Part shown: one piece after another, positions 3,009-31,800 of the stretch
Position numbering within the stretch: the stretch's first letter is position 1
Layout of the letters: each line of letters opens with the position of its first letter
Assembly: GCA_016874735.1 (NCBI GenBank)
Contig: VGTI01000041.1
Location: 1 to 32,946, forward strand
Direction: 5' to 3'
Source: Deltaproteobacteria bacterium
GTDB taxonomy: Bacteria; Bdellovibrionota_B; Oligoflexia; Oligoflexales; CAIYRB01
Length of the DNA: 32,946 bases
Position numbers and translations under genes: made by a program
The notes under the pieces: generated by a model
The model's input: the letters and a program-made list of their open reading frames with translations, nothing else
Databases searched by the model: none
Told to the model about the DNA's origin: nothing

Positions 3009-3092
3009 ATCATTTACCTGTGATTTTAGCAAGTATTTGGTCCACGGGCTAATATGGAAGGGAGAGTCCCTAGCTTGAGGAGTTCCTCGTCC

Positions 3093-4661
3093 ATGGTGCA
3101 AGCCACGGAATCACGCCTGTCCAGACCTTTGACTTTAGTCCTTCTTGCCCTAACAGCCATGTGCTTCTGGCGTGCAGGGCTAAGCCAAGCCCTGCATTGG
3201 GATGATGACCGCTTTCTCGCCTTTGTTAGTAGTCAGGGATCATCGGGGACGGAGCCATTAGTCCGGATCTGGGGCCAGTTCGTCGAGGGCGATTACATCC
3301 CCATACCCTTGACGAGTTTCTGGCTAGAACAAGAAATTTTCAGATTTAGTCCGGGCCTGATCCACATCGACAACGTACTGATCCATCTTTTGAACGTACT
3401 GCTGTTGCTGCGTTTACTAAACTTAATAAATTTGCCCGCGTTCACGTCACTTTTCGTTGTACTTTGTTTTGCCGTCCACCCTTTGCAGGTTGAGCCGGTA
3501 CTTTGGCTGAGTGATCGCAAAAGCTTACTTAACGGCACAGGTTTATTACTTGCGCTCTGGTGCTACCAGCGATTTACTTTGCTGACGGAGCCGCGGAGGA
3601 CCATGTACTTTATCGGTTACTGTGCGGCTTTCCTTTGTTCCCTGCTCTGCAAAGCAACGACCCTGCTACTACCGTTTGGCCTCGTCGTCTTTGAGTGGCT
3701 TATCTGCCGTCAACACTTAGGTAAACGTAAGCTCTGTCAACTAATCCCAATCACGTTAGCATGCGCCTTTGGCGGCCTAAGAATGTACGCCCTAGCAGCG
3801 CATGTTGGGATTGAGTCATCGGCTATCTTCTCTCCCGCACGCCTGCTCACTGCCATCGCGGCATCGCTGACAGCGATAGGCCACTACCTGAAGGCTTTTT
3901 TCTGGCCGCTGGAGCTGTCTCCTTTCTATGCCACCTATGACAGGTTTCCTCATGCCACCCTGCTCGCTTTTGCGGGCTTGGCTTTGCTGAGCCTTTGGGG
4001 TGCATTGGCAGCGTGGACGCGTAGCTCGCTGCAATGGACGAGCTTATTGCTGTACCTAATCTTTCTCGTCCCTGTGCTCCCGCTCTTTCCGCGCGCCAAT
4101 TTTGTCAACGATCGTTACATGTACCTACCCATAATCGGACTCAGCTGCTCTGTCGGTCACATGCTCAACTTGGTGGCCCAAAAACTGCGTTGGCCCCGGA
4201 CCGCGCAACTTGCTTTGCTCCTAGCTGTGGCTTTGGCATTTGCGCTATGCAGCGAGCACCAAAGTCGCATGTGGCAAAACGACGAGACTTTTTGGAAGAT
4301 GGCGGCCAACCGCAATCCACGTAGTGCCCTCGTTTTGAACAATTTAGCGATGCATCTGCGCGATAGGGGACAAGTCGTCGAGGCTACCGCCACGCTACGC
4401 TACGCTCTGGATCTGCCGCCAGAACCGACAGCACCGCGGGGGGCACTTTGGCTAAACTTAGGCGATTTACACGGCGAGAGTAAATGGCCCACACTCTTCA
4501 ATTTGAACACTGCCCTCACCTGCTACCAGCAGGCTCTTGCGTCCGCAGATCGGCCCCAGGACCGTCTGCAGGCGCTGCTGCGCCTTAAAGCGGTTCACAG
4601 TTACCTGGGGCGCACGGAGGATGCTGCCGCTATCGAAGCGCAGCTGCGTCAACAGCCTTAA
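3093..4661 (+). CDS. Polytopic membrane protein with C-terminal TPRs, TMTC/GT-C-like
   Basis: The protein has 522 residues from the ATG at 3093, chosen because AGGAG lies 10 bases upstream; an in-frame ATG at 3054 has no such site. It starts with a membrane segment, then LHWDDDRFL (an acidic first-loop motif as in GT-C transferases), then roughly ten hydrophobic helices. Motifs such as HIDNVLIHLLNVLLLLRLL and VHPLQVEPVLWLSDRKSLL match the TMTC-type layout, in which a GT-C sugar-transfer domain is followed by TPRs. The last 110 residues (NPRSALVLNNLAMHLRDRG, then ALWLNLGDLHG and YQQALASADRP) form about two or three TPR units. The likely role is lipid-linked sugar transfer to exported protein, which is inference. 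The acceptor is unknown. Confidence 0.65.
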   Translation: MVQATESRLSRPLTLVLLALTAMCFWRAGLSQALHWDDDRFLAFVSSQGSSGTEPLVRIWGQFVEGDYIPIPLTSFWLEQEIFRFSPGLIHIDNVLIHLLNVLLLLRLLNLINLPAFTSLFVVLCFAVHPLQVEPVLWLSDRKSLLNGTGLLLALWCYQRFTLLTEPRRTMYFIGYCAAFLCSLLCKATTLLLPFGLVVFEWLICRQHLGKRKLCQLIPITLACAFGGLRMYALAAHVGIESSAIFSPARLLTAIAASLTAIGHYLKAFFWPLELSPFYATYDRFPHATLLAFAGLALLSLWGALAAWTRSSLQWTSLLLYLIFLVPVLPLFPRANFVNDRYMYLPIIGLSCSVGHMLNLVAQKLRWPRTAQLALLLAVALAFALCSEHQSRMWQNDETFWKMAANRNPRSALVLNNLAMHLRDRGQVVEATATLRYALDLPPEPTAPRGALWLNLGDLHGESKWPTLFNLNTALTCYQQALASADRPQDRLQALLRLKAVHSYLGRTEDAAAIEAQLRQQP

Positions 4662-4773
4662 ATCAATATATGCAACAAAATCATCTGGTTAATTAATAAC
4701 CTTCCATCAAACCCGCGAGTTCCACTATACTGCCGGGCTCAAGCCTCGAGATTACCTAAAGGAATCATCTGTA

Positions 4774-6465
<1,692 letters not shown>

Positions 6466-14976: not shown

Positions 14977-15172
14977 CGTTCAAAATTGGGATGTTGAATA
15001 CTGCTGGCTTAGTGACGCAAACTACTAAGATAGCGTCATCAAAATGTAGTTTTTATGCATCTATCAACCTCTTGACGGAGGTTCGACCGATTTGAAGGCG
15101 CCGTGCAATCTCTGATTGGCTTACTCCTCGTTTATGAAGAGTCTTAACCTTATCGGCATGCATACCGGCTGT
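14977..15172 (-). repeat. Direct repeat, left copy
   Basis: This 196-bp segment aligns without gaps to 32,751-32,946. The 69 bp outside the recombinase gene differ at 8 positions, while the last 127 bp (15,046-15,172) are identical. It contains the 3' end of the recombinase gene and a candidate crossover site. The true repeat may be longer, because the right copy is cut by the window edge. Confidence 0.92.
15013..15038. other. Candidate recombination (res-like) site, left
   Basis: TGACGC-N14-GCGTCA forms a 26-bp dyad just downstream of the recombinase stop codon. The right copy at 32,787-32,812 keeps both arms and the spacing but differs at two central positions. Conserved arms with a central crossover region are what small serine recombinases bind. 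Assignment as the crossover site is inference. Confidence 0.45.
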
Positions 15173-15622
15173 CAGTGGTCGGCCATGTGGTCGGCCTTTT
15201 TTACGCGCTTCAGCAATCCCAGCTCTAATTCTTTCGGAAAGAAGATCCCGCTCGAATTCAGCAAAAACGCTGAGCATGCCAGCGAATGCCCGACCTGATG
15301 GGGTTGTGAAGTCAAGTGCTTCAGTAATGGAAACAAAACCAACACCTACTTCTGTTAGGGTTTGCAATGATGAAACTAAATCCACAATGGACCGGCCCCA
15401 GCGATCAAGCTTCCAGACAATGATGGCATCAATTTCCCGTCGAATTGCGGCGCTGATAAGATCTTGTCGCTTCTGTCGGTGAGCTCTTCCTGATCCGACT
15501 TCTTCTACTACTGAAACAAGTTGCCACTTTCTCTTACGAGCATAGGATTTCATAGCCGTTATCTGAGCTGAAAGTGTCTTTTGATCTGATGTTGAGACTC
15601 TTGCATAGCATGCAGCTCGCAT
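15053..15622 (-). CDS. Small serine recombinase (resolvase/invertase family)
   Basis: This 189-residue protein has the size and order of Tn3-type resolvases and invertases. The N-terminal catalytic domain begins MRAACYARVSTSDQ, with nucleophile Ser10 and Arg8. It continues with VWKLDRWGRS (the conserved active-site Arg motif), FTTPSGRAFAGMLSVFAEFERDL and SERIRAGIAEARKKGRPHGR, which links the dimerisation helix to the DNA-binding domain. The C-terminal HTH (VKTLHKRGVSQSEIARRLQIGRTSVKRLI) is intact. The enzyme exchanges strands between paired res or inversion sites. The same 3' end occurs again at the right edge of the window. It diverges from the IS4-type remnant, with a 26-bp palindrome in between. 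Confidence 0.93.
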   Translation of the reverse strand: MRAACYARVSTSDQKTLSAQITAMKSYARKRKWQLVSVVEEVGSGRAHRQKRQDLISAAIRREIDAIIVWKLDRWGRSIVDLVSSLQTLTEVGVGFVSITEALDFTTPSGRAFAGMLSVFAEFERDLLSERIRAGIAEARKKGRPHGRPLTAGMHADKVKTLHKRGVSQSEIARRLQIGRTSVKRLIDA

Positions 15623-16314: not shown

Positions 16315-16626
16315 ATGGAATTCAAAACGGTTACAGTTACCGACCTAAAAAAAGATGCCAATAGGCTGTTTGCTGATGTGAGCCGAGATAAACCCCTACG
16401 GATTCTTCACAGAGCGCATGACATCAAGGTGGTGATCACATTGGACCACTACCTAGACCTCATTGCCTATTGGCAGAGCGGGACAAAAACCCAACCCACA
16501 GAAAGAACCCCTCTCGGTGAGCAGCTACAGCGCGTACAGCGAGAATTTAACGAGCTAAACAAAATATTAGATACTGACGCTGATGATGGAGGAGTACGAC
16601 TTGGCAGCAAAGTGGCGCTACCGTAA
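16315..16626 (+). CDS. Antitoxin, Phd/YefM-like
   Basis: This 103-residue protein starts MEFKTVTVTDLKKDANRLFADV, continues with KPLRILHRAHDIKVVITLDHY, and ends in a polar tail with QREFNELNKILD. That is the arrangement of Phd/YefM antitoxins: an N-terminal DNA-binding and dimer domain and a flexible toxin-neutralising C-terminus. GGAG lies 6 bases before the ATG. It overlaps the following toxin gene by 44 bp, typical of co-translated toxin-antitoxin pairs. In this context it would help keep the element in the cell. Confidence 0.7.
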   Translation: MEFKTVTVTDLKKDANRLFADVSRDKPLRILHRAHDIKVVITLDHYLDLIAYWQSGTKTQPTERTPLGEQLQRVQREFNELNKILDTDADDGGVRLGSKVALP

Positions 16627-16909
16627 TAAAGAAGTCGAACATCAGGTTGAACTGCGTGCCTTACAGAAAGCTCTTTTTACGGGTGACCTTGGTACAGCTG
16701 CTCGGTATCTGCAAAAGATTGATGAGCTGATTAAAAATATTGAGGCCTTTCCATACATGGGACAGGCATGCGGTAAAGCAAATTACAGGTACAGTGTGCT
16801 CGGTACCGCATCACCCGGAGAAGGTGATGTATTGGTGTGGAGCTGGGACGGGATTAACTTAGTCGGTGAAGGTATCTACCAAAGCTTGCCGCCTGAATAT
16901 TTGCCATAA
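16583..16909 (+). CDS. Probable toxin, RelE/ParE-like
   Basis: The 108-residue product begins MMEEYDLAAKWRYRNKEVEHQ. A long helical hairpin (ALQKALFTGDLGTAARYLQKIDELIKNIEAFP) is followed by beta strands (YRYSVLGTA, DVLVWSWDGINLVGEGIYQ). The helices-then-sheet order, size and partner fit the RelE/ParE fold. The match is weak and I cannot name a catalytic residue, so the assignment leans on the adjacent Phd-like gene. It starts inside the antitoxin gene in another frame, GGAG being provided by the coding sequence around the start. Confidence 0.55.
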   Translation: MMEEYDLAAKWRYRNKEVEHQVELRALQKALFTGDLGTAARYLQKIDELIKNIEAFPYMGQACGKANYRYSVLGTASPGEGDVLVWSWDGINLVGEGIYQSLPPEYLP

Positions 16910-18265: not shown

Positions 18266-18652
18266 TTGGAGTGTGAAACACCCTTGGCCCTCAAAGATCC
18301 CAAAGTAGTGAGCGATTTAAAGAGCCTCAGTGTAGCCGCCTTCCGCGCCACGAAGCTTCTGCCAAAGCACATGCGACCAAAGATCGGCGGAAGGGTAGAG
18401 GATCACTGCCTAGATGCTTGGCTACTAGGCCGGCAGTTTGCCCTGACTACGAAAGAGCTAAAACCAGGCAATAGCCAGCTACTTCAAGAGGCGCTAGGCC
18501 ATCTGGACAGTGTTGGCTGTCTATTCGAGCTGTGTCTTGAGCTTAGAGCTATCAGTGATGGCCAGTTTGGCGAAATCATCGCGCTGACAGAGGCCATCCA
18601 AAAACAACTCCACGGACTTCTCAAGACCTATGCCGTATCACCTAAATCATGA
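18266..18652 (+). CDS. avd: DGR accessory variability determinant, Avd-like
   Basis: The 128-residue product is nearly all helical and contains RATKLLPKHMRPKIGGRVED, LLQEALGHLDSVGCLFELCL and ELRAISDGQFGEIIALTEAI, then QKQLHGLLKTY. This matches Avd and related S23-like four-helix-bundle proteins, which form a basic pentamer that binds the RT and is needed for cDNA synthesis. Length is typical of Avd. The only start that keeps all helices is TTG at 18266, without a clear ribosome site; this may keep expression low. Its last 23 bases overlap the RT start, so the two are translationally coupled. Identification rests on helix pattern plus position. Confidence 0.82.
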   Translation: MECETPLALKDPKVVSDLKSLSVAAFRATKLLPKHMRPKIGGRVEDHCLDAWLLGRQFALTTKELKPGNSQLLQEALGHLDSVGCLFELCLELRAISDGQFGEIIALTEAIQKQLHGLLKTYAVSPKS

Positions 18653-19652
18653 TCTCCTCGGTCAGGTCTCTAACCTTGGCAACGTGACGCGAGCCTTTCG
18701 TGCCTGCGCTCGCGGTAAAAGGGGGTCTCGCGGCTATCAGCTGATGCAGATGCAGTTGGCTCGTGAGCTGGTTGCCATGAGTCACCAGTTGGCCAGCGGT
18801 GATTGGCCTTGGCAAGCCTACAATAGCTTCGTCGTGTGTGACCCTAAACGGCGGACCATTTACGCGGCACCCTTTAGGGACCGAGTCGTCCACCACGCGA
18901 TCCACCAAGTGATTGCACCGCTGATCGAGCCACTTATCCCGCCCAACTCGTGGGCTTGCCGCAAGACGATGGGTAGCCGCAACGCCGTCAGTGCACTGAC
19001 GGCGACTTTAAAAAAGCTGGGTAACGAGCGCTATACGGTCAAACTCGATGTCGCCAACTACTTTGCCTCGATCAGTCACGAGGTCCTTGGCCAGATGCTC
19101 CGCCGTGTGATGCCGGATCCCTCTCTTGATATCCTGCTCGCGTCACTGCTCAGCTCGCACCCGGAGTATGCTAGGTGCCGCCGTGGCATTCCCCTTGGCA
19201 ACCTAACGTCTCAGCTCTTTGCTAACTTTTACCTAAGCCCAGTCGATCATCTCGCCGCGAGACACGAGGGTGACGTCTTTTACATCCGTTACATGGATGA
19301 CATGGTTTTAGTGGGCGCGAGTAAAAAGACTGTGCTCGATCTAAAAGACCAAATCGTCGCCCTTTGCCAGCGGGAGCTCAGGCTCAAGATTCCTGTCCGT
19401 AAGACGGTGCATCTGGCGTCGGATCCCGTGCCCTTTCTTGGCTTCGTTCTTTATGGCACGGGCTACCACGTCCTTGCGCGGACGAAGAGGCGGCATCGAC
19501 GCAAAGTTAATAAGCTCACGAAGGCGGGCAAGAGAGCGAGCGAGATTGCTGCCGTGGTCGAGTCGTTCGCGGCGTTTGCTAACCTGGACGACGCCTTGCG
19601 CATGGTTTCGAACTCGACTACTGTCACGAGCGGTGGACGGCCTAAGGCGTGA
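18630..19652 (+). CDS. DGR reverse transcriptase
   Basis: This 340-residue RT has no maturase, RNase H or endonuclease domain, as usual for DGR enzymes. Motifs in order: RTIYAAPFRDRVVHHAI (75-91), TVKLDVANYFASISH (136-150, catalytic Asp140), GIPLGNLTSQLFANFYLS (186-203), FYIRYMDDMVLVG (217-229, Asp223-Asp224), LRLKIPVRKT (250-259) and VPFLGFVLYG (267-276). The SQ in LGNLTSQ replaces the SP of group II intron RTs and is a known DGR signature linked to selective infidelity at adenines. It overlaps avd by 23 bp and its stop is 10 bp before the TR. The enzyme would copy TR RNA into mutagenised cDNA together with Avd. Confidence 0.96.
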   Translation: MPYHLNHDLLGQVSNLGNVTRAFRACARGKRGSRGYQLMQMQLARELVAMSHQLASGDWPWQAYNSFVVCDPKRRTIYAAPFRDRVVHHAIHQVIAPLIEPLIPPNSWACRKTMGSRNAVSALTATLKKLGNERYTVKLDVANYFASISHEVLGQMLRRVMPDPSLDILLASLLSSHPEYARCRRGIPLGNLTSQLFANFYLSPVDHLAARHEGDVFYIRYMDDMVLVGASKKTVLDLKDQIVALCQRELRLKIPVRKTVHLASDPVPFLGFVLYGTGYHVLARTKRRHRRKVNKLTKAGKRASEIAAVVESFAAFANLDDALRMVSNSTTVTSGGRPKA

Positions 19653-19662
19653 GCAGCGTAGG

Positions 19663-19781
19663 ACGCGCTGCTTCGGGGGGCGAATTGGAACAATGGCTCG
19701 AACGCCGGTCTGTTCGCCGTCAATCTGAACAATGCGCCGACCAACACGAACACGAACATCGGGTTCCGCTGCGCGCTGCAG
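19663..19781 (+). repeat. DGR template repeat (TR)
   Basis: The 119-bp TR has 26 adenines. Aligned to the VR it differs at 15 positions, all TR adenines (6-8 each to G or C, fewer to T); the 93 non-A positions are identical. Read in the VR frame it encodes ALLRGANWNNGSNAGLFAVN and LNNAPTNTNTNIGFRCALQ, with ten AAY codons and no stop. It begins 10 bp after the RT stop, so it is transcribed with the RT. The last 25 bp (19,757-19,781) are unmutated and equal to the VR end: the IMH* segment. Identity to the VR stops at 19,662 on the left and 19,782 on the right. Confidence 0.97.
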
Positions 19782-19801
19782 ACTTGATCGACCATGCAAG
19801 A

Positions 19802-19823
19802 AGTCTGCTCTCACGGGAGCAGA
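19802..19823 (+). other. Stem-loop 20 bp after the TR
   Basis: GTCTGCTC-TCACGG-GAGCAGAC forms a perfect 8-bp stem. No T run follows. In the Bordetella phage DGR the RNA next to the TR is structured and required for cDNA priming, so this hairpin may be part of the functional DGR RNA here. It could also help end the transcript. Confidence 0.55.
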
Positions 19824-19836
19824 CCATGACTCAGGG

Positions 19837-20493
19837 TCAAGGCACCCGGCCGCTCACCTGGGCTGACCCACCGCTTTTGCGGTGGGGGTCCGAACCCCGC
19901 CCGTCAAGCTTGCGCATGAGCGAGCCAAAGGCCGGCAATACGTCGCGCTCAAGAAACTGGGCCGCCTTCTGGTGCCTTTGGTAAAGGGGAGCATCTGCCG
20001 CCAACACACCGATGATGCTGCCAATGGCGGCCCTAGCCTTATCGTAGTTAAGACGCTTTGCCGCACCAAATCCGTAGTAGCCGGCACCGAGGTGAGAAAG
20101 CACGTCGCGGCACCGGGCGTCAACAAAAGCGGCGAGGTCGGGTGTTTCATCGGCAAAGTTGAGCTGATCGCGGGCCGCTAGGAAAAGACGGTAGCAGGCT
20201 AGGTTGTGTATGGCTGCTGTCGCTAGGGATCCTGCCTTTGACTGAGTCGCCTTAGATGGAGGTGAAGGCGGCTCGCTAGTGCTGACGGGTGCCGCCACTC
20301 CTGCTGCCTCTTTCGTCAACTTGGCGTGAAAGCTCATGAGCGAAGCGCGGTCGACGTACCAGCAGTTGGCCACTTTGACGGCGCGGATCGCTTTGAGCTT
20401 GATGTACTTGCGGACGGTCTTTTCTGACATATGAAGGAGGCTCGCCGCCTCGTCTAGGCCAATCTCCGCGGGTGCTTCTTTGCGCTGGGCCAT
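19837..20493 (-). CDS. HTH plus helical-domain protein, candidate DGR accessory
   Basis: The 218-residue product starts at an ATG with AGAGG about 8 bases before it. Residues 10-58 (IGLDEAASLLHMSEKTVRKY, then IKLKAIRAVKVANCWYVDR) are an excisionase/MerR-type winged HTH. A Pro/Ser linker (60-88) leads to an all-helical domain of about 105 residues (IHNLACYRLFLAARDQL, DLAAFVDARCRDVLSHL, KARAAIGSIIGVLAADAP, AAQFLERDVLPAFGSLM). That helical domain is reminiscent of a bundle like Avd, but I cannot show homology. The gene lies between TR and VR on the target's strand, its 3' end 55 bp from the TR. Possible roles are regulator of the DGR or target recognition. An 8-bp-stem hairpin (19,867-19,886) lies inside its 3' end. 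Confidence 0.72.
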   Translation of the reverse strand: MAQRKEAPAEIGLDEAASLLHMSEKTVRKYIKLKAIRAVKVANCWYVDRASLMSFHAKLTKEAAGVAAPVSTSEPPSPPSKATQSKAGSLATAAIHNLACYRLFLAARDQLNFADETPDLAAFVDARCRDVLSHLGAGYYGFGAAKRLNYDKARAAIGSIIGVLAADAPLYQRHQKAAQFLERDVLPAFGSLMRKLDGRGSDPHRKSGGSAQVSGRVP

Positions 20494-21130
20494 CGTGGAT
20501 CCTCTTTCTTTGTATCGTTGCCGTCAGGTGTAGGCGTCGACGAGGTCGTCGATTATGCACGAGCAAGGCAGCCTTCGGGTAGGGAGAAGTGGAAAGCCTT
20601 CCGGAAGTTCCGGAACTTCAGCCGGCAAAAAAGCCAATGATTTACTAATAAACCGCCTTCCGTTTGTTTATAGAAAACTGCAAAAGGATTCATCAGCACC
20701 CATTTTAAAGTGATTAATACCGGATGCTTAAAGAGAACCGGAAAGGCGCAAAATGTTACCGCTCGGACTTTCCACTTCTCCCCCGCCCCTTTCCGGAAGT
20801 TCCGGAAGGGTGCCTAAAAAAGGCCTAAAATACAGAAAAATTAGTAAGAAGTTACCCATAGAAATCGAGTGGTTGTTAGAAAGTTCCGGAACTTCCGGAA
20901 CGTTCCGGTTGGTCCAAGCCCTTCCGGAAGCCCTGAAGTTCCGAAATGGGACGATTTTGCAGGCACCTAAAATCTTGGAGGCTAGTTAAAAAATAGGCAA
21001 ACCAAGTAAAATTAGATGTTTAAGAAAAACGACCCTAGTCCAGACACCGAGAAGTGGAAAGGAGAAGTGGAAAGGCATCCGGAACTTCCGGAACCACCCT
21101 TTCCGGAACTTCCGGAACTTCCGGAAGGCC
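20494..21130. repeat. TTCCGGAA palindrome array in a gene-free stretch
   Basis: No gene is supported here. The stretch holds eleven copies of the palindrome TTCCGGAA (starts 20599, 20608, 20791, 20800, 20884, 20893, 20922, 21086, 21101, 21110, 21119) plus half copies. Neighbours are often exactly 9 bp apart, in pairs or a triplet. GAGAAGTGGAAAG occurs three times (about 20,584, 21,048, 21,061) and once inverted (about 20,764), always beside the palindromes. A 78-codon frame at 20,753-20,989 is built of these repeats and is not believed. The array lies between the HTH gene's promoter and the VR hairpin and may bind a DGR or plasmid protein. Confidence 0.8.
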
Positions 21131-21164
21131 AAAAAAATTTCCGCCCAGCTGTCGCTGGGCGGAA
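21131..21164 (-). terminator. Hairpin downstream of the VR, also a terminator
   Basis: On the minus strand TTCCGCCCAGC-GACA-GCTGGGCGGAA forms a perfect 11-bp stem, followed by ATTTTTTT. It starts 54 bp after the end of the VR. It is a textbook terminator for the target gene. The GACA loop also fits the GRNA tetraloop described for hairpins that follow the IMH in phage DGRs and help target recognition, so it may do both jobs. Confidence 0.85.
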
Positions 21165-21212
21165 GAAACTCAATGATTAATGATCTAATGACACAATGAC
21201 TAAATGATCACC

Positions 21213-24200
21213 CTAAGGCTGCAGCGCGCAGCGGAACCCGATGCCCGTGTGCGTGTAGGTCGGCGCAGAGGCCAGACCGACGGCGAACAGACCGGCGACC
21301 GAGCCATGGTGCCAATCCGCCCCCCGAAGCAGCGCGTTCCCTGCAGCCGTGCAGCCATAGTATTGACCCGCACCGTTCGCGGATGTGAGCGCGCCGCTGG
21401 GGCCTGCGACCTTCTTCTCCCAGTCTGTGACATTGGCGTTATCCCACTGGACCCAGCCAGTGTTGTACCAATTAACACTCGTGCACTGCATATCGGTCCA
21501 CTCCCAGACGTTACCGGAGAGGTCCCAGATCACGTTGCCGTTACTCAGGACGTGGGTGCGCATTTGCGAGTTGTTGGCCGCCCCTGCAGAATAACCAGTG
21601 GTTGCATAGGACTGACCGGTGCCTGAGTAAATGTTGGTGTCTGTCCTAAGTGAGCAGGAAGCATTAGCTGCGTCCGCTAAAGACGCGGTGAGCGTGCAGT
21701 TAGTTACAGCCCCTTCGGTAGTAGCAGCAAGAGCATTAGCTGGGACGTTGTCAGTGTGTCCTGTCGCCAGTTGGATCCCAGCCGTCGAGTTGATATCGTT
21801 AATGGCCGTGGCCTCAATGTTGCGCGCCATCGTCATCCACTCGCCCTCAGTCACAAGATGGGCGCCGACACGCTGGCAGACGTCTTTGGCCTCGTACCAG
21901 CTGATACTGACAAATGGTGTACCGGAAGCGGTTGAGACTGGAAGGCCCGTGGTGCTGTCTTTTTTGGCCTCGTACTTCATGACGCAAAAGTCTTTAAAGC
22001 TAAACCTGTCATCTTTTGGGACTAACACATAGCCGGTGGGACAGGTCCCAGATCCTGAACCGGCGGTGGCATTAATCGTGATCGCGCCAGCCGTATTGTC
22101 GATGGTGACACCGGTGCCTGCCGTGAGAGTTGAAAGAGTGAAACCAGTGCCGTTACCGATGAGTAGTTGGCCGTTCGCTGCGCTCGATCCATCGACACCA
22201 ATGCCGCCTCTAGCTGCACTGAGAGTACCAGAGCTGATCAACGCAGCACTATGTGGCGGGAGATCCGAGGCTTCAAGGGTGAGACCTTCGATGGCGCGGC
22301 CTTTCGCGTCGATTCTAAGTTTGGCGTAGGTACCTGCCACAATGCCGGTAGTTGATAGTGATGCTGTCGCAGATCCAGGCCCTGAGGCGGCGACATCACC
22401 GGTGAGTGCCGTCAGGTAGCTGCCTGCAGCCTGTTTACTGTTAAACGTGGTCCAGTCGGTGGCCGTTAGGTAGCCGTCGGTAGAGGTGGAAGACTGCGGA
22501 ATTTTATTTGCCGGTAGTGCCGGGATTTCTGAGGCTGAGATTGCGGCGACAGTGACAGTGCCACCGTTTGACGTTTGTTTTAGAAACTGACCAGCCCCGC
22601 CCGTGCTAGCTAGATTTGCACCAGTGCCGCCGTTTGCAACTCCAAGAGTGCCGTTCACAGCATTAGTGGAGGCAAGATTCACGGTGCCGAACGTAGGTTG
22701 GTTGCTCGCATTCACCGTTAGGATATTGTACTGACTGCCTGCGGCCGTCGATGAGAGAGCTGAGCTGGACCCGATCACTACACCGTTATTGGTGAAAGCA
22801 CCGACGCCGGTACCGCCGTTGGCTATGGCCAGGGTGCCGGTCGTCAGGCTAGTGGCACTGATGGGTGGAAGATCACCGGGCTCAAGAGTCGCGCCGCTGA
22901 TGACGCGGCCTTTAGAGTCGGTGGTCACTTTAGTATAGTTGCCAGCAGTGCCCACAGCCGCAAGAGTGGGGTCTGGGAAGTTACCAGTGAGATCACCGCC
23001 CGCTGCACCTGTAGGCGCGACACCAGAGACCCAGTTGAGGGTCCCAGTACCGTTGGTTGAGAGCACTTGGCCAGCTGAGCCGTTAGTACCGGGTAGCTCC
23101 CACGTGAGCTGCGACGAAAGCGTATCGGGAGCTTTAAAGGCGACGAAGTTAGTGTTGGCTTTGTCGTTTAAGACGAGCTTGCTAGCGTTTGTACTGTCGC
23201 CTCTGACGGTGACGTCCCCATTAGATGTCACTGTCGAGGCTGTGAGAGCTCCAGTAGCCGCTGTGCCGGTCGTATTGATGGTGGTGGAGCCACCGATACT
23301 TGATGCTCCGTTGATCGTGGCGCCAGTTATAGTTTTGTTGGTCAGTGTTTCTGGGGCATCACGCGTCACGACTACGCCTGAAGCCGGAAACGTGGCTGTA
23401 GAAATGACACCGGTACCACCGTTACTCCTATCCAAGATCCCGCCGACCGAAGCTGCCTTAGAAAGGTCAATAGCACCAAAGGAAGGCTGACCCCCAGCGC
23501 TCGGCACGCGCAGAACCTGGTCAGCGCTCGGTGAGGCCGTCGCCACCAGATTACCGGTGCCGTTACCTAAAAGGACGCCGTTTAGGTTGAAGTTTGTGCT
23601 ACCAGTACCACCTACGGCGACGGCTAGTTGCCCACTCGTAATCTTCGCTGCATTTAACTCTGGGATATCAGCTGCAGCTAAGGCGGTACTGCTTATGACC
23701 TGACCCTGGGCGTTTGTGATGACTTTGGCGTAAGTGCCAGCCGTACCGATATTGGCAAGACTCACGGTCACAGTTCCACTAGCAGGCGAGGCCGCGATGC
23801 CAGTGCCTGCACTAACGCTACTTACTTTATTTGAAAACGATGTGTAATCGGCGTTGGAAATTAGCCCTGCACTGACACCTGCTCCTGCCGAAGCCAGCGG
23901 GATATTGAGTGTATGGACACTGCCCACCGGTGTAAACGCTAGGCTGCTCCCATTGGTGGTGGTAGCAAAACTCTGCTCGCCAGCCGTGACCCCGCCTAGG
24001 CTCGTGACGCCTACGCCAGCTATGCCAAGCGCCTTGACGGCAGAGCCGTCCCAGTATTTGATTTGACCAGAGTTCTCGTTAAACCAGGTTTTGCCTTTGT
24101 CGTTAGTTGTGAGTCCAGTCGGATCCGCTGTGTGTGCGCTAAGGCCTAGGGTCTTAGACGCAGCCATCTCAATACTGCCGGCATTGGCAAGGGCGTTAGC

Positions 24201-26078
24201 GTTCATGTCGATTGCGCCAGTCATGGTGTCGCCACCTTTGTTTAGCGGCGTGTAGCCAAGGGCGTTTTGTTTGGCGTTAAAAGTTGTCCAGTCCGTAGCT
24301 GTCAGATAGCCATCGGTTGAGGTGGTAGCCTGCGGTATTTTATTTGCCGGTAGTGCCGGGATTTCTGAGGCTGAGATAGCGGCGACAGTAACGGTGCCAC
24401 CGTTTGACGTCTGTTTTAGAAACTGTCCTACGCCACCTGTGGCGCTAAGGTCTACTCCCGTACCACCGCTTGCAAGTGGGAGGACACCACTCACGGCAGA
24501 CGGGCTAGCGATGTTTAGAGCGCCAAATGACGGCACACCACCAGTCGTTGGTACCCGCAAGATCTGGTCGGCGCTGCCCGCTGCGGTGGTGAGTAGATTT
24601 CCTGCGTCGTTTCCAAGCACAACACCGTTCGCTGTGAAGTTCGTTGCTCCGGTGCCACCATTGGCGACTCCGAGAGTGCTGGATACCTCCGTTGCAAGGT
24701 TGATGTTGCCGCCACTGGCGGCTTCAGTAATCCGACCTTGTGCATCAACCGTAATCGTAGCGCGTGCGTAAGTGTTTGGGGTCACTCCGGTGGTGGAGAG
24801 ACTGATGGTCCCACTGCTCGTGATCGGGCCGCCGGTAAGCCCAGTCCCCGTAGCCACACTGGTAACAGAGCCGCCACTGGCGAGCTTGGTGTAGGCGCTG
24901 CCATTCTCCGAGACCTTAAATTCGTTTGTACTTTGATCGAAATAAATGCGGCCATGTCCGCTGCTACTCAGCGCTGGGGCTGTGGTTGCTGGGAGTGATA
25001 ACTGCGCAAGAGATAATTCACCAGTCACCGTATCGCCAGCTTTATTGAGCGGTGTGTAACCAAGTGAGGCGGTGATATCAGCGCTAGCGATTGTCCCTAC
25101 CGTGACGATACCGCCAGAGGTCGTTTGTTTGAGGTAGTGCCCTGCGCCACCAGTAGCACTGAGATCGGCACCGGTACCTCCGTTGGCGCGCGCAAGTACA
25201 CCCGTCACAGCAGCAGGCGAGCCCAAATTGACGCGACCAAACTCAGGACCACTGGCGCCCACTACAAGGACGTTATTTTGTACGCCGGGAGCTGTGGCCG
25301 AAATCGGTCCAGCGCCAGCTCCGACCAAGACGCCGTTATTCGTAAAACTTGTAGCTCCGGTCCCGCCACCCAGCACTGCGAGCGCGCCTGAACTAGTGCC
25401 GCTACTCGTGAGCGTTTGCGGCACCCACTCTGTGCCGCTATAGGTCAGCACCTGGCCTGGTTGCGGCGCGGTACTCGAAACCGTTTGTCCCTGGATGCTG
25501 CTGGCTGTTGCCGCGGCGGGAGTGCCCCAGACGAGCTCCCCACCAGCGTTCTTGGTGAGAAACTGGTTCGTAGCTGGAAGGGATTTTAGAGCTAGACCCA
25601 GAGTTCCGTCGCTACCGAAAGAGAGCGTCTTACCGTCTACCGGTACGCGCAACGCAAGAGGCACGTAGCTATACTTCTGACGTGGATAAGTTTTGCCGCC
25701 TGCGGTGATCTCAATAAAAACTGGCTCAGAGCCGTCACCAAATACGGCCTCGACCTGAGAAGGCATGAGATTGATATTAAGACTTATGACGCCGTTAGTG
25801 GGAAATACCCCTGTGTAAGGGTAGTTCTGGCCTAGTTGAGTGCCACCCGCTTCAGCAGTGTAAAACCTCACATCGATGTCGAGAGGCCCATCTATAGGTG
25901 ACCCGTTAGCATTCGTCAGTCGTGCCGAGTAGACGAGTGGGTAGTAAGAAGCAGCTGCCACGGACTCACGGGTAAAAAGTAAACCTAACACCAGCAAGGC
26001 AACTTCAAGACCGTTGCATCGCCGATGTAGTAGTCCTTGTTTTCCCTTTGCTCTGCCCATGGTTCCTGGCCCTGCCAC
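21213..26078 (-). CDS. DGR target: giant exported repeat protein with FGE/C-type-lectin-like tip
   Basis: The 1,621-residue protein starts at GTG 26,078; an ATG six codons later (26,060) is an equally good start. A basic stretch and hydrophobic core (LEVALLVLGLLFTRESVAAA) form a signal peptide. Residues about 45-160 (YPLVYSARLTNANGSPIDG, DIDVRFYT) are a beta domain seen in surface proteins of predatory and Oligoflexia-type bacteria. Residues 160-1340 hold many fibre-like repeats (LGVANGGTGA, NNGVVIG, YLTATDWTTFN, LGYTPLNKGGDT). Residues 1346-1616 form an FGE-sulfatase/C-lectin-type domain (CPTGYVLVPK, GAHLVTEGEW, DLSGNVWEW, GIGFRCALQ). The VR covers 1581-1620, with variable residues 1588, 1590, 1591, 1594, 1601, 1603, 1604, 1608, 1610 and 1612. 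It is probably a cell-surface fibre with a hypervariable binding tip. Confidence 0.93.
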   Translation of the reverse strand: MAGPGTMGRAKGKQGLLHRRCNGLEVALLVLGLLFTRESVAAASYYPLVYSARLTNANGSPIDGPLDIDVRFYTAEAGGTQLGQNYPYTGVFPTNGVISLNINLMPSQVEAVFGDGSEPVFIEITAGGKTYPRQKYSYVPLALRVPVDGKTLSFGSDGTLGLALKSLPATNQFLTKNAGGELVWGTPAAATASSIQGQTVSSTAPQPGQVLTYSGTEWVPQTLTSSGTSSGALAVLGGGTGATSFTNNGVLVGAGAGPISATAPGVQNNVLVVGASGPEFGRVNLGSPAAVTGVLARANGGTGADLSATGGAGHYLKQTTSGGIVTVGTIASADITASLGYTPLNKAGDTVTGELSLAQLSLPATTAPALSSSGHGRIYFDQSTNEFKVSENGSAYTKLASGGSVTSVATGTGLTGGPITSSGTISLSTTGVTPNTYARATITVDAQGRITEAASGGNINLATEVSSTLGVANGGTGATNFTANGVVLGNDAGNLLTTAAGSADQILRVPTTGGVPSFGALNIASPSAVSGVLPLASGGTGVDLSATGGVGQFLKQTSNGGTVTVAAISASEIPALPANKIPQATTSTDGYLTATDWTTFNAKQNALGYTPLNKGGDTMTGAIDMNANALANAGSIEMAASKTLGLSAHTADPTGLTTNDKGKTWFNENSGQIKYWDGSAVKALGIAGVGVTSLGGVTAGEQSFATTTNGSSLAFTPVGSVHTLNIPLASAGAGVSAGLISNADYTSFSNKVSSVSAGTGIAASPASGTVTVSLANIGTAGTYAKVITNAQGQVISSTALAAADIPELNAAKITSGQLAVAVGGTGSTNFNLNGVLLGNGTGNLVATASPSADQVLRVPSAGGQPSFGAIDLSKAASVGGILDRSNGGTGVISTATFPASGVVVTRDAPETLTNKTITGATINGASSIGGSTTINTTGTAATGALTASTVTSNGDVTVRGDSTNASKLVLNDKANTNFVAFKAPDTLSSQLTWELPGTNGSAGQVLSTNGTGTLNWVSGVAPTGAAGGDLTGNFPDPTLAAVGTAGNYTKVTTDSKGRVISGATLEPGDLPPISATSLTTGTLAIANGGTGVGAFTNNGVVIGSSSALSSTAAGSQYNILTVNASNQPTFGTVNLASTNAVNGTLGVANGGTGANLASTGGAGQFLKQTSNGGTVTVAAISASEIPALPANKIPQSSTSTDGYLTATDWTTFNSKQAAGSYLTALTGDVAASGPGSATASLSTTGIVAGTYAKLRIDAKGRAIEGLTLEASDLPPHSAALISSGTLSAARGGIGVDGSSAANGQLLIGNGTGFTLSTLTAGTGVTIDNTAGAITINATAGSGSGTCPTGYVLVPKDDRFSFKDFCVMKYEAKKDSTTGLPVSTASGTPFVSISWYEAKDVCQRVGAHLVTEGEWMTMARNIEATAINDINSTAGIQLATGHTDNVPANALAATTEGAVTNCTLTASLADAANASCSLRTDTNIYSGTGQSYATTGYSAGAANNSQMRTHVLSNGNVIWDLSGNVWEWTDMQCTSVNWYNTGWVQWDNANVTDWEKKVAGPSGALTSANGAGQYYGCTAAGNALLRGADWHHGSVAGLFAVGLASAPTYTHTGIGFRCALQP
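21219..21337 (-). repeat. DGR variable repeat (VR)
   Basis: The 119-bp VR ends two codons before the stop of the target gene. Relative to the TR the ten Asn (AAY) codons now read Asp, His, His, Val, Gly, Ala, Ser, Tyr, His and Gly. No change is seen outside template adenines. The unmutated 25 bp at its 3' end (21,219-21,243) are the expected initiation-of-mutagenic-homing (IMH) site. The first base after it differs (C in place of TR A). Confidence 0.97.
22440..24460 (-). repeat. Internal DNA repeats within the target gene
   Basis: Segments of about 120 bp around 22,467-22,590 and 24,310-24,425 are nearly identical and encode the same KIPQ...STSTDGYLTATDW and TVTVAAISASEIPALPANKI units. Weaker copies of the NGGTG unit recur along the gene. 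Such DNA-level identity points to recent duplication and would allow length change by recombination. Confidence 0.75.
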
Positions 26079-26506
26079 ATCGTAGACATCAGTTCTGTGT
26101 GGCTAAGTTAGGTTATCGGAACCGAAGGGTGAAACTTGAGGTTTAAAAATTGAGCACTTATAGGGTCAAAGTTACGTGAAGTTAGGACCTAGTGTCAGGT
26201 TTTTTTACACCACGCATCTTACGCACGGTGACCCTGGAAACTTGGAGTCCTGCTCCTTGGAAACCCTGTGGCTTTAAAAGCCCCTTCCAATGCCTTTTCC
26301 CTTCGCTTCGCTACGCCTTCGTCCGTCCCTGATGGGACGGCCTCAGTTGCTTTAGTGATTTCTACACACCCTATGCACCTAAAGTGCTGGGGGCGCATCG
26401 CTAGTGGATGCAAGTTGCCGTGATGATGGTCGTTATACGTATACCTACGTATACGATCGTGACACGTACAAGATTCTAATCTTACGGAATCAATGACTTC
26501 TTTCGG

Positions 26507-28138: not shown

Positions 28139-28438
28139 TCACCGCTGGCTACGCTTGCGACCTGGCTTTTTGCTGGAAAGATCAAACGGCACCGTTTCGT
28201 CGAACTCTGCCGCCCAAATATCGGCGATATCTTCAATCTCTTCCATTGCGGCTTGGGTTGTTAATTTCTTGGAGCGAAGCCGGTTAACGATTAAGGCGAC
28301 CGCCTGACAGCTCTCCACCGAGGTTTCGTAGAAATGAGATTTATTTGGCGTAGCAGCGGCCAGAGCATCCACACTTTTTTTGACGGAGATACTGACGTGC
28401 CCACGCTTGAGTTCATCTTTTAGTTTCGGTCTTCCCAT
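28139..28438 (-). CDS. Probable antitoxin of the RelE-like module
   Basis: The 99-residue product starts MGRPKLKDELKRGHVSISVK, a basic N-terminus with the alternating pattern of a ribbon-helix-helix strand followed by helices (SVDALAAATP). It then has SFYETSVESCQAV-like helical content, an acidic middle (MEEIEDIADIWAAEFDE) and a basic end (KKPGRKRSQR). It lies 29 bp downstream of a RelE-like toxin on the same strand, so the order is toxin first, as in higBA. It would neutralise the toxin and repress the pair. The family cannot be named with certainty. Confidence 0.55.
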   Translation of the reverse strand: MGRPKLKDELKRGHVSISVKKSVDALAAATPNKSHFYETSVESCQAVALIVNRLRSKKLTTQAAMEEIEDIADIWAAEFDETVPFDLSSKKPGRKRSQR

Positions 28439-28467
28439 TTTTAAGTCTCACTCACTTTAATATTTTA

Positions 28468-28737
28468 TTAACCGCCGCCCGCCTTATACACATCACCGCG
28501 CGAGCCTATTTTGACCACGATGACCAAAAGCTCTTCATCCTCAATCTCGAAGATGACTCGGAAACTTCCGGCTGGAAATCTATAGCGACTATCGAACCCG
28601 GCCATCTTCTCAACCCACACGAGTTTGCGAGGGTCGTCCGCTAACTCATGTATCCTCTCGCTGATGTTGCGCTGGACCTTGGGAGGCAATTTATCGAGTA
28701 CCTTTTGCGCGTCCTTTTTGATTTTGACTTGGTACAC
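28468..28737 (-). CDS. RelE/ParE-superfamily toxin
   Basis: This 89-residue protein has the standard RelE fold pattern: MYQVKIKKDAQKVLDKLPPK (first strand and helix), ISERIHELADDP (second helix), RYRFPAGSFRVIFEIEDEEL and LVIVVKIGSRGDVYK (beta sheet with the conserved R..Y and terminal R..VY). Most relatives cut mRNA on the ribosome, though ParE relatives poison gyrase; the sequence alone does not decide. The start is GTG at 28,737, with GGAG 5 bases before it. The antitoxin candidate follows 29 bp downstream. Confidence 0.85.
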   Translation of the reverse strand: MYQVKIKKDAQKVLDKLPPKVQRNISERIHELADDPRKLVWVEKMAGFDSRYRFPAGSFRVIFEIEDEELLVIVVKIGSRGDVYKAGGG

Positions 28738-29481
28738 AAAGTCTCCGGGCCCCAGTTACTTATCGGCAAATCTCATATTTACTTTAGCCTAAAAAGGCGA
28801 CAAAAACTACGCCGTTAAAAATCATTTGATTTCATATACTTGCCATATATTCGAGTTCGCTTCATTAGGCCGACCACCAGACAGCACCAGGACAACTTTT
28901 CTCCCAGTTTCCCAACCATTTGGCGCCTGCCGATACAGGAGTTAATACATGAGGGCCGCGCCCGACCGTAAGTGCCAGCTAAACGTCTTCGTCTGGTTTG
29001 CATATCGTAGCGCCATTATCAGCGAAGAAAACAGCAGCTCCATCCTCAAAAGTCGTGAGCTATCGCTGCTTCTTCGTATTTGTTCACCTAAAGCGCATTA
29101 CTCGATAGCTAGGGTGTGATTCTTGGCACCGATCAGGCTTGGTCCCAAAGAGAAGGTGCTTGTTCCGGATACCAGCAAAGATGTCATTCGTTCCTGGCAT
29201 GCCTCTATAAACGCCAAAAACCGCCATAGAATCGATTTTTACAGGCCCGGTAATAGTCCGGTATAGGATAACTCAAAAGCCTCTAGAAAGCCGTAGAATG
29301 GGCGTTATTTTTGATCTAGGCGTGAAAACCTTGGGGCTCAGATGTTTCATGATGGTCACCCCTTCGTGGCCGAGGCCTTGACGGCTCACCTAGCGTAACC
29401 TTCTCGCATCGCCAAGACGGTTGGCATCCGGATGGCCGGTACCTCAGGACTATGAATTCTGGTCGCTGTAAGAGACACAAC
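28738..29481. other. Gene-free stretch with coding remnants
   Basis: No intact gene is supported. On the minus strand, 29,087-28,979 reads VNKYEEAAIAHDF and, after a one-base shift near 29,046, EDGAAVFFADNGATICKPDE followed by DV and a stop: it looks like a small frameshifted gene. A 25-codon frame beginning at an ATG near 29,350 (minus, after AAGGGG) gives MKHLSPKVFTPRSKITPIL and could be a tiny gene downstream of the rep candidate. Both are tentative. The first 100 bp should hold the toxin promoter. Confidence 0.35.
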
Positions 29482-30603
29482 TTACTTCCAAGCCTCCGTG
29501 TGATCGCTACTAGCCTCCCCAAACGAAGTATCTTCCTGAGGCTGCTGGTCTTTCTCGTCGAACAAAGTGCGAAAATAGGCATGCCGCTTTTCAAACTCTT
29601 CTGGCGCCGGCCAGCATCCGTTTTGTCGCATTCGCTTCATAAGCAGCGCCAAGGGTTCGTGAATCGTTTTGCCGCTCGACGTGTGGCGTAGCTCGAAATC
29701 AAAGTGCACTAGCGAACGCTGCACGACGTCAAAGGGGATCCCTAAGCTGCGCAACTGGAGAACTTGTGATTTGCCAAACCCGATGTCGGTCAGCATCGAG
29801 TAGTCCAAGTCCGCGGGTGACCATTCATCTTCTATGCGCGCGCGCGTTTCGGCAGTAGTAGTAGTTAAGAAATTAGTATTTATATAACTACTACTACTAG
29901 GGGGATTTGGCTCCGATCCTGGCTCCGATCCTGGCTCCGAATTGGCTCTGTTTTGGCTCCGAATTGGCTCCGATCCGGCTCTGATTTTGCTCACTGTGAG
30001 GTCCCGGTACACCGGCTCGGGGAGTAAATATCGAGTCCAGCCGCCCGGCCCTTTTTTAAACTGGTATCGGGAAACCCAGCCACTCTCTTCTAGTCTCTGC
30101 AAAGCCTTCTTAACCGCGCTGGGAGTGCTTTTCACTGCTGTTGCCAAATCGCCGCTGAAGATTTTTTCGCTCACGCGGCTTCCAGAAAATCGGCACGAGT
30201 CGTACACGAAATCGAGGCAGCGACTTTGAAGGCGCGACAGGTCTGCCAGCCCAAATTTTGGCTCCGATCCTGGCTCCGAATTGGCTCTGTTTTGGCTCCG
30301 AATTGGCTCTGATCCGGCTCCGATCCTGGCTCCGAATTCGGATGTTGGATCACCCACAGCGGCCTCGTTTTGGCTCCGAATTGGCTCTGTTTTGGCTCCG
30401 ATTAGGGGCACTTTTGGCTCCGAATTGGCTCTGTTTTGGCTCCGAATTGGCTCTGTTTTGGCTCCGAATTTATCTGACGTAGTATTTGCCGCCGAAGTTT
30501 CGTGGTCTTCCCAAGGCATTGTTAGAGTTTTCTTGGGTAACTCCTTATTCGATTTGGCAATAATTGTTCGCTTCAACCTCTTGTCGTTAAGAGAGAGTGC
30601 CAT
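29482..30603 (-). CDS. Candidate plasmid replication initiator with internal iterons
   Basis: The ATG at 30,603 follows GGGAGGTGAT, an excellent ribosome site, 3 bp after the parA stop; the two form an operon. The 373-residue product has a basic N-terminus, a low-complexity part (45-118) built on SEPIRSQNRAN units, a winged-helix domain (119-200: LSRLQSRCLDFVYDS, VKSTPSAVKKALQRLEESGW, RYLLPEPVYRDL), a second SEPIRSQNRAN part (207-232), a Ser/Thr stretch and a C-terminal helical domain (YSMLTDIGFGKSQVLQLRS). The repeats come from iteron-like DNA. No exact Rep family is recognised. Its role follows from winged helix, iterons and parA; a regulator of parA is the alternative. Confidence 0.62.
   Translation of the reverse strand: MALSLNDKRLKRTIIAKSNKELPKKTLTMPWEDHETSAANTTSDKFGAKTEPIRSQNRANSEPKVPLIGAKTEPIRSQNEAAVGDPTSEFGARIGAGSEPIRSQNRANSEPGSEPKFGLADLSRLQSRCLDFVYDSCRFSGSRVSEKIFSGDLATAVKSTPSAVKKALQRLEESGWVSRYQFKKGPGGWTRYLLPEPVYRDLTVSKIRAGSEPIRSQNRANSEPGSEPGSEPNPPSSSSYINTNFLTTTTAETRARIEDEWSPADLDYSMLTDIGFGKSQVLQLRSLGIPFDVVQRSLVHFDFELRHTSSGKTIHEPLALLMKRMRQNGCWPAPEEFEKRHAYFRTLFDEKDQQPQEDTSFGEASSDHTEAWK
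29854..29898. other. AT-rich stem-loop beside the iterons
   Basis: AGTAGTAGTAGTTA (29,854-29,867) and its exact reverse complement (29,885-29,898) flank a 17-base loop that is almost all A/T. It lies 10 bp from the first iteron cluster, inside the rep candidate gene. An alternating GCGCGCGCGC run lies just left (29,836-29,846). It is a candidate DNA-unwinding element of an origin. Confidence 0.6.
29909..30470. repeat. Iteron-like repeats within the rep gene (candidate origin)
   Basis: Twenty-two copies of GGCTC begin units close to GGCTCCGAATT or GGCTCTGTTTT. Seven lie at 29,909-29,987 and fifteen at 30,260-30,470; spacing is 11 bp in most cases and 12 in a few, so the repeats face one side of the helix. 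The two alternating types make a 22-bp period, and three units (33 bp) give the 11-residue period SEPIRSQNRAN in the protein. The clusters flank the winged-helix coding segment. Iteron plasmids and phage lambda O show comparable initiator-bound repeats, in lambda also inside the gene. Confidence 0.75.
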
Positions 30604-30606
30604 TCA

Positions 30607-31704
30607 TCACCTCCCTAAAGATCGAGCTTCGGGCGCCCGTTTCTTTTTCGAGGTGACACGATTATGAGCTTCATTAATTGACTGCTGCTTTGCAGCGTCG
30701 TTCAATCGAGCCCACACCTCTAGGATCACTTCACGCATTTCATCAGCGACAATACTTGTTGGACAGTATTCGGGTAGAGAGAGGTGCGATGCGATAGCCT
30801 CTTCACCATGAACCGACTCTCTTATCGCTCCGCCAGTGCAGCCTGGCACGTGTGCCAAATACCAGGAGCGTATTTCGGCACTGAGCTTCCTTGTGGACGT
30901 GAACTTAGTTGGTACGAAGATATGCGCAAAATTACGCCCAGTATCCCTCTTGAAATTATCGAGGTAGGCCTTGAAGGCCTGATAGTTACGAAAGTTGTTT
31001 ATACGACATTCGAGCGGAGAGATAAGAGCATCACAGGCCATCAGAGCATTAGAAATCAGTAAGTTCCAGTTTGGCGAGCAGTCGAGGATGACAAGATCGT
31101 AGCGAGCCCTGAGGGGTTTGATAACTTTATCTCTAAGCCAGAAATCACGCATATTTCGACTAGAGATTTCTCGTTCCAAAGCTACAAGTTCAGGCGTCTC
31201 TGGAATGAAATCTAGCGTTGGAATGTCCGATTTGATGATTATGTCATCGAGAGTAACTTTACCTTGTGCAAAGTCGGACAGACCATACACGGATCCGATC
31301 TTTTCAAGAGCTGAGTCTAGGTTGTCTGATTCATCAAGATCGACTTGGTAGCCCAGTGCGTTTGTAACATCACACTGCATATCTAGACCAATAATGCACA
31401 CCTTCTGATTATGAAGGGCTGCCAATCTACCAAGATTTAGCGCCAAAGTACTTTTAAGAACGCCGCCTTTTGTCGTGAATACAGCAACTACCATTGAGCC
31501 GCTAAGAGGTTTCATGAATCCGTAGCGCTCGCCAATAAGTGGCAAGTCGGCAATAGTCCAATTTCGACGAGGGTTACTTTTACCTCCCTCTCTTGAGGCT
31601 GCTGGAATCAAGCCAGTATTTTCAGCCTTGATGACAGCTTGTCGGGATACGTCGGCACCGAAGATTTTAAGTACCTTTTGAATCGTATACTTATTGGATT
31701 CCAT
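30607..31704 (-). CDS. parA: ParA-type partition ATPase with N-terminal HTH
   Basis: The ATG at 31,704 has GAGG 6 bases upstream and gives 365 residues; the frame is open to 31,737 without a ribosome site. Residues 1-70 (KYTIQKVLKIFGADVSRQAV, RNWTIADLPLIGERYGF) form a MerR-like HTH as in plasmid ParA proteins that repress their own operon. The ATPase domain has deviant Walker A TTKGGVLKST with its signature Lys, Walker A' LDMQCDVTNALG and Walker B YDLVILDCSPNW. It would segregate the element's DNA. No parB is seen; the downstream rep candidate or an unlinked gene may supply the partner. Confidence 0.9.
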   Translation of the reverse strand: MESNKYTIQKVLKIFGADVSRQAVIKAENTGLIPAASREGGKSNPRRNWTIADLPLIGERYGFMKPLSGSMVVAVFTTKGGVLKSTLALNLGRLAALHNQKVCIIGLDMQCDVTNALGYQVDLDESDNLDSALEKIGSVYGLSDFAQGKVTLDDIIIKSDIPTLDFIPETPELVALEREISSRNMRDFWLRDKVIKPLRARYDLVILDCSPNWNLLISNALMACDALISPLECRINNFRNYQAFKAYLDNFKRDTGRNFAHIFVPTKFTSTRKLSAEIRSWYLAHVPGCTGGAIRESVHGEEAIASHLSLPEYCPTSIVADEMREVILEVWARLNDAAKQQSINEAHNRVTSKKKRAPEARSLGR

Positions 31705-31800
31705 AAACGGCCTCATCAAAAAAGTTCCAGCGCACATCGTTTACATTGATGCTAAATAGTATCATAAAAAAGTCAACCAGCAACTGACGACTCATGTTAC
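31705..31800 (-). promoter_or_regulatory. parA-rep promoter region
   Basis: On the minus strand TTGCTG and TACTAT are separated by 16 bases (about 31,752-31,780), a reasonable sigma-70 promoter some 50 bp before the parA start. The stretch is AT-rich and may hold the ParA operator. The hexamers are not perfect. Confidence 0.35.

Follow-up and report, generated by a model that had tools for sequence, protein, structure and literature searches.

A chromosomal diversity-generating retroelement with a conserved candidate accessory protein and a fiber-like target in a Bdellovibrionota lineage

The window analyzed here covers positions 1 to 32,946 of contig VGTI01000041.1 of a bacterium assigned to the Bdellovibrionota (assembly GCA_016874735.1). 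It contains a genuine diversity-generating retroelement (DGR) with a template repeat (TR), a variable repeat (VR) at the 3' end of a long target gene, a reverse transcriptase (RT), and an avd-like gene. Very probably, this chromosomal DGR acts on a secreted fiber, whose lectin-like C-terminal tip it rewrites, and is accompanied, in this Bdellovibrionota lineage, by a conserved accessory protein with a helix-turn-helix (HTH) head and a helical bundle. An earlier note made from the sequence alone had described the locus as a DGR, which is upheld here. The account was incomplete, as it lacked the HTH accessory, an iteron array, a structured tail of the TR RNA, the inversion of the RT block, and the fiber family of the target.

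Adenine-specific differences between TR and VR

The gapless alignment of TR and VR over 119 nt given in the earlier note was reproduced on recomputation. It contains 15 mismatches, each at an adenine of the TR (7 A>G, 5 A>C, 3 A>T), and the repeats are identical at all 93 non-A positions. When extended, the match reaches 123 nt and includes a 16th A mismatch at position 19782. The TR contains 26 A in 119 nt, and the probability that 15 random mismatches would all fall on A is 1.9e-12. In an independent repeat search, the pair was found to be the longest inverted repeat of the window. AAY codons are a signature of DGR templates. The TR has 10 of these codons (Asn) when read in the target's frame, and none of them is retained in the VR, where D, H, H, V, G, A, S, Y, H, and G are encoded instead. 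A DNA search of the assembled genome for a second VR found none.

Evidence for TR-to-VR copying in related loci

The comparison of VR and TR proposed in the earlier note was carried out in eight related loci, where 18/18, 15/15, 15/15, 14/14, 14/14, 11/11, 10/10, and 13/14 mismatches lie at TR adenines; together with the window, this applies to 125 of 126 mismatches. Two viral contigs showed the same pattern (14/14 and 13/13). Three sister pairs allowed for a comparison of VR alleles. Two genomes of the window's genus carry the DGR in syntenic position with flanks that are 95.7% identical. Their VRs differ at 12 TR-A sites and at one T/C site, where the TRs differ identically. In a pair of Bacteriovoracaceae loci, the VRs show differences at 21 A sites and one concerted site, and in two contigs from the viral collection at 13 A sites and three concerted sites. 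All non-A differences between the VRs of these pairs (5/5) are thus mirrored in the TRs, which is predicted by repeated overwriting of the VR by the TR. The pairs are direct evidence of a natural transfer of sequence from TR to VR, in relatives rather than in the window genome. Judged by its own TR/VR pattern, the DGR of the window is probably active as well, presumably by retrohoming. The rewriting of the VR by mutagenic retrohoming, as proposed earlier, is supported by the A-only mismatches in relatives, the concerted TR/VR sites, and the placement of the RT in a DGR-type clade described below.

In L041, a scaffold of a relative's metagenome-assembled genome (MAG), an assembly gap (NN) at positions 8664-8667 is located exactly within the VR. 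This fits VR heterogeneity in the population but is only suggestive. Two further contigs (L130, positions 2397-4999, and L131, positions 2242-3998) carry targets with a VR-like tip and a truncated HTH gene and have no RT nearby; they may represent decayed or trans-acting DGR loci. A remote VR of G012 (on C648) was considered as a target of the TR in the same genome and was ruled out because it does not match this TR.

Reverse transcriptase, Avd, and organization of the locus

The presence of an RT with LGNLTSQ and YMDD motifs and of an Avd-like gene beside the TR was confirmed by these motifs and by matches to PHROG 1423 (RT, E 8e-77) and PHROG 3206. The solved structure nearest to the RT is the Bordetella DGR RT (8ub7_A, E 2.6e-33). 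A profile built from the Avd proteins of the lineage matched 2gsc in the PDB (1.8e-5) and, weakly, the Avd structures Bbp7/bAvd (4dwl, 0.017) and DGR Avd (8ub7_B, 0.12).

The earlier note had named beforehand an RT grouping with group II introns as a result that would speak against a DGR. In a tree of 71 RTs, which included group II RTs from the same order, the RT of the window was placed in an 18-member clade (support 100/100) among the DGR RTs and not with the group II introns. The group II RTs formed a clade apart from the DGR-type RTs (supports 100/99 and 100/100). The named relatives of the RT are mostly MAGs of Oligoflexia, Bacteriovoracia, and Bdellovibrionia, which places the window in an Oligoflexia-like genome of the Bdellovibrionota. 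An in-frame TAG in three related RTs was taken as the normal RT stop; the match continues into the sequence that follows. Another clade of RTs in the same order, with a length of 417-463 aa and the motifs IGNLTSQ or IGSLTSQ and YVDD, is found at L011, L013, L015, L019, L021, L024, L025, and L027. It lies apart from both DGR and group II RTs, and the one member scanned contained no other domain.

In the relatives, the genes follow the order target-VR > HTH gene > avd > RT > TR on one strand throughout. The earlier note correctly placed avd and RT before the TR; its layout is corrected here to avd > RT > TR, with the VR and the target on the opposite strand (Table 1). In the window, target-VR and HTH gene are both located on the minus strand, whereas the avd-RT-TR block has the opposite orientation to that in the relatives. 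A single inversion of this block explains the layout.

The TR is followed by a conserved tail, for which 36 consensus base pairs were obtained from the eight-locus alignment; 17 of them retain pairing despite changes on both sides, while covariation contributes an energy term of about zero in total. A conserved RNA structure of the TR tail thus has moderate support. A structured RNA also follows the TR of phage BPP-1, and the predicted tail in the window corresponds to it in position (PMC8867640). An Rfam search gave no match. The last ~20 codons of the HTH gene overlap the tail in antisense. Beyond the iterons, a GC hairpin precedes a T run on the minus strand; it could be either terminator-like or the post-VR hairpin of DGRs.

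Table 1. Features of the DGR locus (positions in the window; a dot denotes no strand)
Feature	Position	Strand	Basis and remarks
avd-like gene, 128 aa	18266..18652	+	TTG start as listed; PHROG 3206 'Avd protein of DGR', E 2e-6
DGR reverse transcriptase, 340 aa	18630..19652	+	LGNLTSQ, YMDD; PDB, PHROG, tree
Template repeat (TR)	19663..19781	+	match extends to 19785
Putative TR-RNA 3' tail	19779..19899	+	conserved AGACTTG ... CAAGGCAC ... hairpin-GGTCCGAA; 8-locus alignment
HTH_17 (Xis-like) + Avd-like four-helix-bundle protein, 218 aa, candidate DGR accessory	19837..20493	-	Pfam, conservation, AlphaFold + Foldseek
GAGAAGTGGAAAG, four copies	20584..21074	.	at 20584, 20768 (reversed), 21049, 21062
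Iteron array, 11 perfect TTCCGGAA palindromes	20599..21126	.	many in 9-bp tandem; between VR and HTH gene
GC hairpin (21139-21164), then T run on - strand	21131..21164	-	sequence + fold
DGR target, 1621 aa	21213..26078	-	signal-peptide-like N terminus, tail-fiber-like repeats, FGE/C-type-lectin tip ending in VR
Variable repeat (VR)	21219..21337	-	3' end of target gene; match extends to 21215
N-terminal domain common to the genome's fiber family	25554..25961	-	47 matches in own genome, alignment

The HTH-bundle protein and the iteron array

The gene between the VR and the TR encodes a protein that matches Pfam HTH_17 (5e-8). A first scan yielded 15 DGR loci of the lineage with this protein, and avd was overlapping or adjacent in 14 of them; the exception is the rearranged locus of the window. 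Further HTH proteins, with avd and RT adjacent, were detected in G049 and on five contigs of the viral collection. In G018, the HTH gene is missing and a transposase-like ORF is located directly upstream of the RT gene. The protein was not found near the distant DGR loci L044-L083, and searches of phage and plasmid collections gave no match. The AlphaFold model (mean pLDDT 72) predicts a winged-helix head and a four-helix bundle. In Foldseek comparisons, the head resembled the Xis structure 4j2n (rmsd 1.1), and the bundle resembled the S23/IVP proteins 2gsc and 2rld and the DGR Avd of 8ub7; the superposition on 8ub7_C had a TM score of 0.71 and an rmsd of 3.0, but an E-value of 0.81.

All 11 TTCCGGAA copies of the window are located inside the iteron array, compared with 0.49 copies expected from the base composition of the 33-kb window. 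Outside the array, the genome (4.65 Mb) has no copy of the 17-mer TTCCGGAA-C-TTCCGGAA, not even when one mismatch is allowed. Across 15 loci, 181 motifs of the TTYCSGAA type were counted in 16.9 kb of the interval from VR to avd and 16 in 210.7 kb elsewhere, an enrichment of ~140-fold. Their spacing peaks at 8-11, 19-23, and 29-32 bp (near 9, 20, and 30). The sites differ by lineage (TTCCGGAA, TTTCGGAAA, and GCGGAAA), and in most loci the iterons start 60-140 bp 3' of the VR. The distant DGR loci had a motif density of 0.24 per kb, and no cluster exceeded 4 per 1.2 kb. Most simply, the iterons would be the binding sites of the HTH protein. A universal role of the iterons as a cis signal of every VR was ruled out, because the degenerate remote VR of G012 has none.

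The target protein and its fiber family

The tip of the target matches Pfam FGE-sulfatase (9.7e-7), and its profile matches PDB entry 5vf4 (2e-8), a DGR variable protein of Thermus aquaticus. The structure model of the tip was poor (pLDDT 31). The VR terminates near the stop codon of the 1621-aa protein, and the repeats of the shaft match PHROG tail-fiber families. The N-terminal domain has 47 matches in the same genome, in which there are only a few FGE tips; the DGR therefore diversifies one member of a large fiber repertoire. The FGE tips at C39 and C14 were considered as further DGR targets and turned out to be ordinary paralogs with neither a DNA match to the TR nor iterons.

A second copy of the 5' end of the target (C57:18239-19027, corresponding to positions 25422-26211 of the window) has 93% DNA identity and ends at the contig end; there may be a second target gene with an unseen tip on C57. 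At C18:44574 and C20:14296, the N-terminal domain opens uninterrupted frames of 15,097 and 12,490 aa, which are possible giant surface proteins of the fiber family.

For comparison with the mosaic adhesive trimer (MAT) fibers of Bdellovibrio, ten S74-containing fiber proteins from four Bdellovibrionia genomes were used. When profiles were compared, the N-terminal domain showed a weak match to these proteins (E 3e-4, probability 40%), with 61 aligned columns that begin immediately behind the signal peptide; a kinship of the two families is thereby suggested. A direct search for the N-terminal domain in 60 genomes (threshold 1e-5) found none. Judged by its family, the target probably displays a surface fiber that recognizes other cells (prey, host, or phage).

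Proposed mechanism and alternative explanations

In the mechanism proposed for the window, the TR would be transcribed together with its structured tail. RT and Avd would copy this RNA with misincorporation at A, assuming the chemistry of BPP-1, and the cDNA would replace the VR, so that the tip could change at as many as ten of its ligand-facing residues. The HTH-bundle accessory would bind the phased TTCCGGAA-type iterons 3' of the VR. Its likeliest role would be local control, either by autoregulation of the HTH-avd-RT-TR operon or by keeping the RT-Avd ribonucleoprotein near the VR. Several observations weigh against parts of this proposal. Only one VR allele was seen for the window genome, and G012 has HTH-avd-RT-TR yet no iterons. 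The HTH protein obtained only poor E-values in Foldseek (0.02-0.8), and hhalign detected no sequence homology of its bundle to Avd (probability 1%). The bundle is called Avd-like in fold only, because no sequence relation was detected. Surface display and prey recognition are, for their part, only inferred.

An origin of the TR/VR pair by ordinary duplication, or as the relic of a group II intron, has next to no probability. The RT reaches 99 bits with the NCBIfam group II RT model, which is far below the cut-off of 300 bits, and the A-only changes (p ~2e-12), the RT clade, the Avd protein, and the concerted evolution of TR and VR refute it. The chances appear evenly balanced that the protein and the iterons are an autorepressor and its operator only, which shut off the HTH-avd-RT-TR operon with the VR being independent of them. 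In relatives, where the HTH gene opens the operon, the iterons immediately precede this gene, in the classical position of an operator; some iterons are located within the HTH coding region. In the window, however, the inverted avd-RT-TR block has no upstream iterons and the TR/VR differences are nevertheless A-only, while 11 iterons and an intact HTH gene remain beside the VR. This objection is weak, since the inversion may be recent. An Avd-like bundle would also be unexpected in a plain repressor.

A smaller, still appreciable probability is given to the docking of the RT-Avd-RNA complex near the VR by the HTH protein, which would bind the iterons there and contact the complex via its Avd-like bundle. 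Such tethering is in accordance with the location of the iterons, which in most loci begin 60-140 bp 3' of the VR and have been kept with the target even in the inverted locus of the window; the resemblance of the C-terminal fold to Avd also agrees with it. On the orphan target contigs L130 and L131, remnants of the HTH gene are still found next to a VR-like tip, but these contigs have at most one TTCCGGAA-type site. G012 does without iterons, BPP-1 requires no such protein as far as we know, and complex formation is purely putative. Autoregulation and a target-side function are not mutually exclusive, and both fit the data. It is improbable that the HTH protein and the iterons come from a mobile element that carried the DGR, where they would serve replication, partition, or excision, and have no role in diversification. 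The HTH domain is Xis-like, the iterons resemble plasmid origins, genes for ParA, a resolvase, and toxin-antitoxin systems are located nearby, and related loci are found on IMG/VR contigs. On the other hand, the HTH gene goes together with the RT clade in several families and keeps its position relative to VR and avd, whereas the other mobile genes are not shared, except for a toxin-antitoxin-like pair. In G014 and G017, the locus sits among ordinary chromosomal genes, and the phage and plasmid collections, as mentioned above, contained no match to the protein. The most far-reaching interpretation is a separate subtype of DGR. Its mutagenic RT complex would be brought to iterons on the VR side by a dedicated, sequence-specific DNA-binding protein that has an Avd-like domain, and the fiber diversified in this way would serve a predatory-type bacterium in recognizing its prey or host. 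We regard this as possible, though doubtful.

Genes flanking the DGR

A gene for a Phd-like antitoxin and its partner gene are located upstream of the DGR (positions 16315-16909). Their relatives flank the DGR on IMG/VR contigs (L139, positions 867-1618 and 8615-9323; L142, positions 8308-8977), so that a toxin-antitoxin-like pair recurs near these DGRs. Positions 15053-15622 and 28139-31737 encode a resolvase, a ParE-type toxin pair, ParA, and an HTH protein that is replication-like and contains the segment IRSQNRANSEP repeatedly. Plasmid-like genes are thus present on both sides of the DGR, and the right boundary of the island lies past the contig end.

Comparison with known systems

The DGR of the window belongs to a known type. 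With the DGR of the Bordetella phage BPP-1 (brt, avd, mtd) it shares RT, Avd, TR, a VR at the 3' end of a gene with a lectin tip, A-specific changes, and a structured RNA tail, the latter being predicted for the window. It differs in its cellular target with a signal-peptide-like start, the FGE-type tip, the HTH-bundle gene, the iterons, and the inversion of the RT block relative to the target. A protein of the HTH-bundle type is, to our knowledge, not needed by BPP-1. Among the FGE/C-type-lectin variable proteins of DGRs in cellular organisms is TvpA of Treponema. The target resembles this group in its C-terminal formylglycine-generating-enzyme-like tip with the VR at the end, but in the window the tip sits on a tail-fiber-like shaft of ~1300 residues and belongs to a large paralogous family.

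The MAT fibers of Bdellovibrio, trimeric surface fibers for the recognition of prey glycans, are secreted and form a group of many paralogs. The signal peptide is followed by a conserved N-terminal beta domain of ~130 aa, a shaft, and exchangeable tips, including a C-type lectin tip that has been compared with Mtd; no DGR was reported for them (PMC10769870). The fiber family of the window likewise forms a large paralogous repertoire with different tips, although N-terminal homology is not firm. Known DGR accessories are Avd, HRDC, and MSL, and one further accessory without Pfam assignment has been mentioned (PMC10053308); the HTH-bundle protein may be identical with the latter. Like these, its gene is located beside the RT gene, and a four-helix fold as in Avd is predicted, whereas the Xis-like HTH domain and the iterons set it apart. 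The HTH-bundle accessory and the iterons are not mentioned in the DGR literature searched, a search that did not cover the main accessory survey (Wu et al.). They are apparently the new part of the system, and an earlier description may exist.

How DGRs choose their target, are held at it, and are regulated is little understood, and a conserved DNA-binding accessory together with repeats on the VR side provides a directly testable handle. If the target is truly a recognition fiber, Bdellovibrionota bacteria would hypermutate a recognition protein in the way that phages do with their tail fibers.

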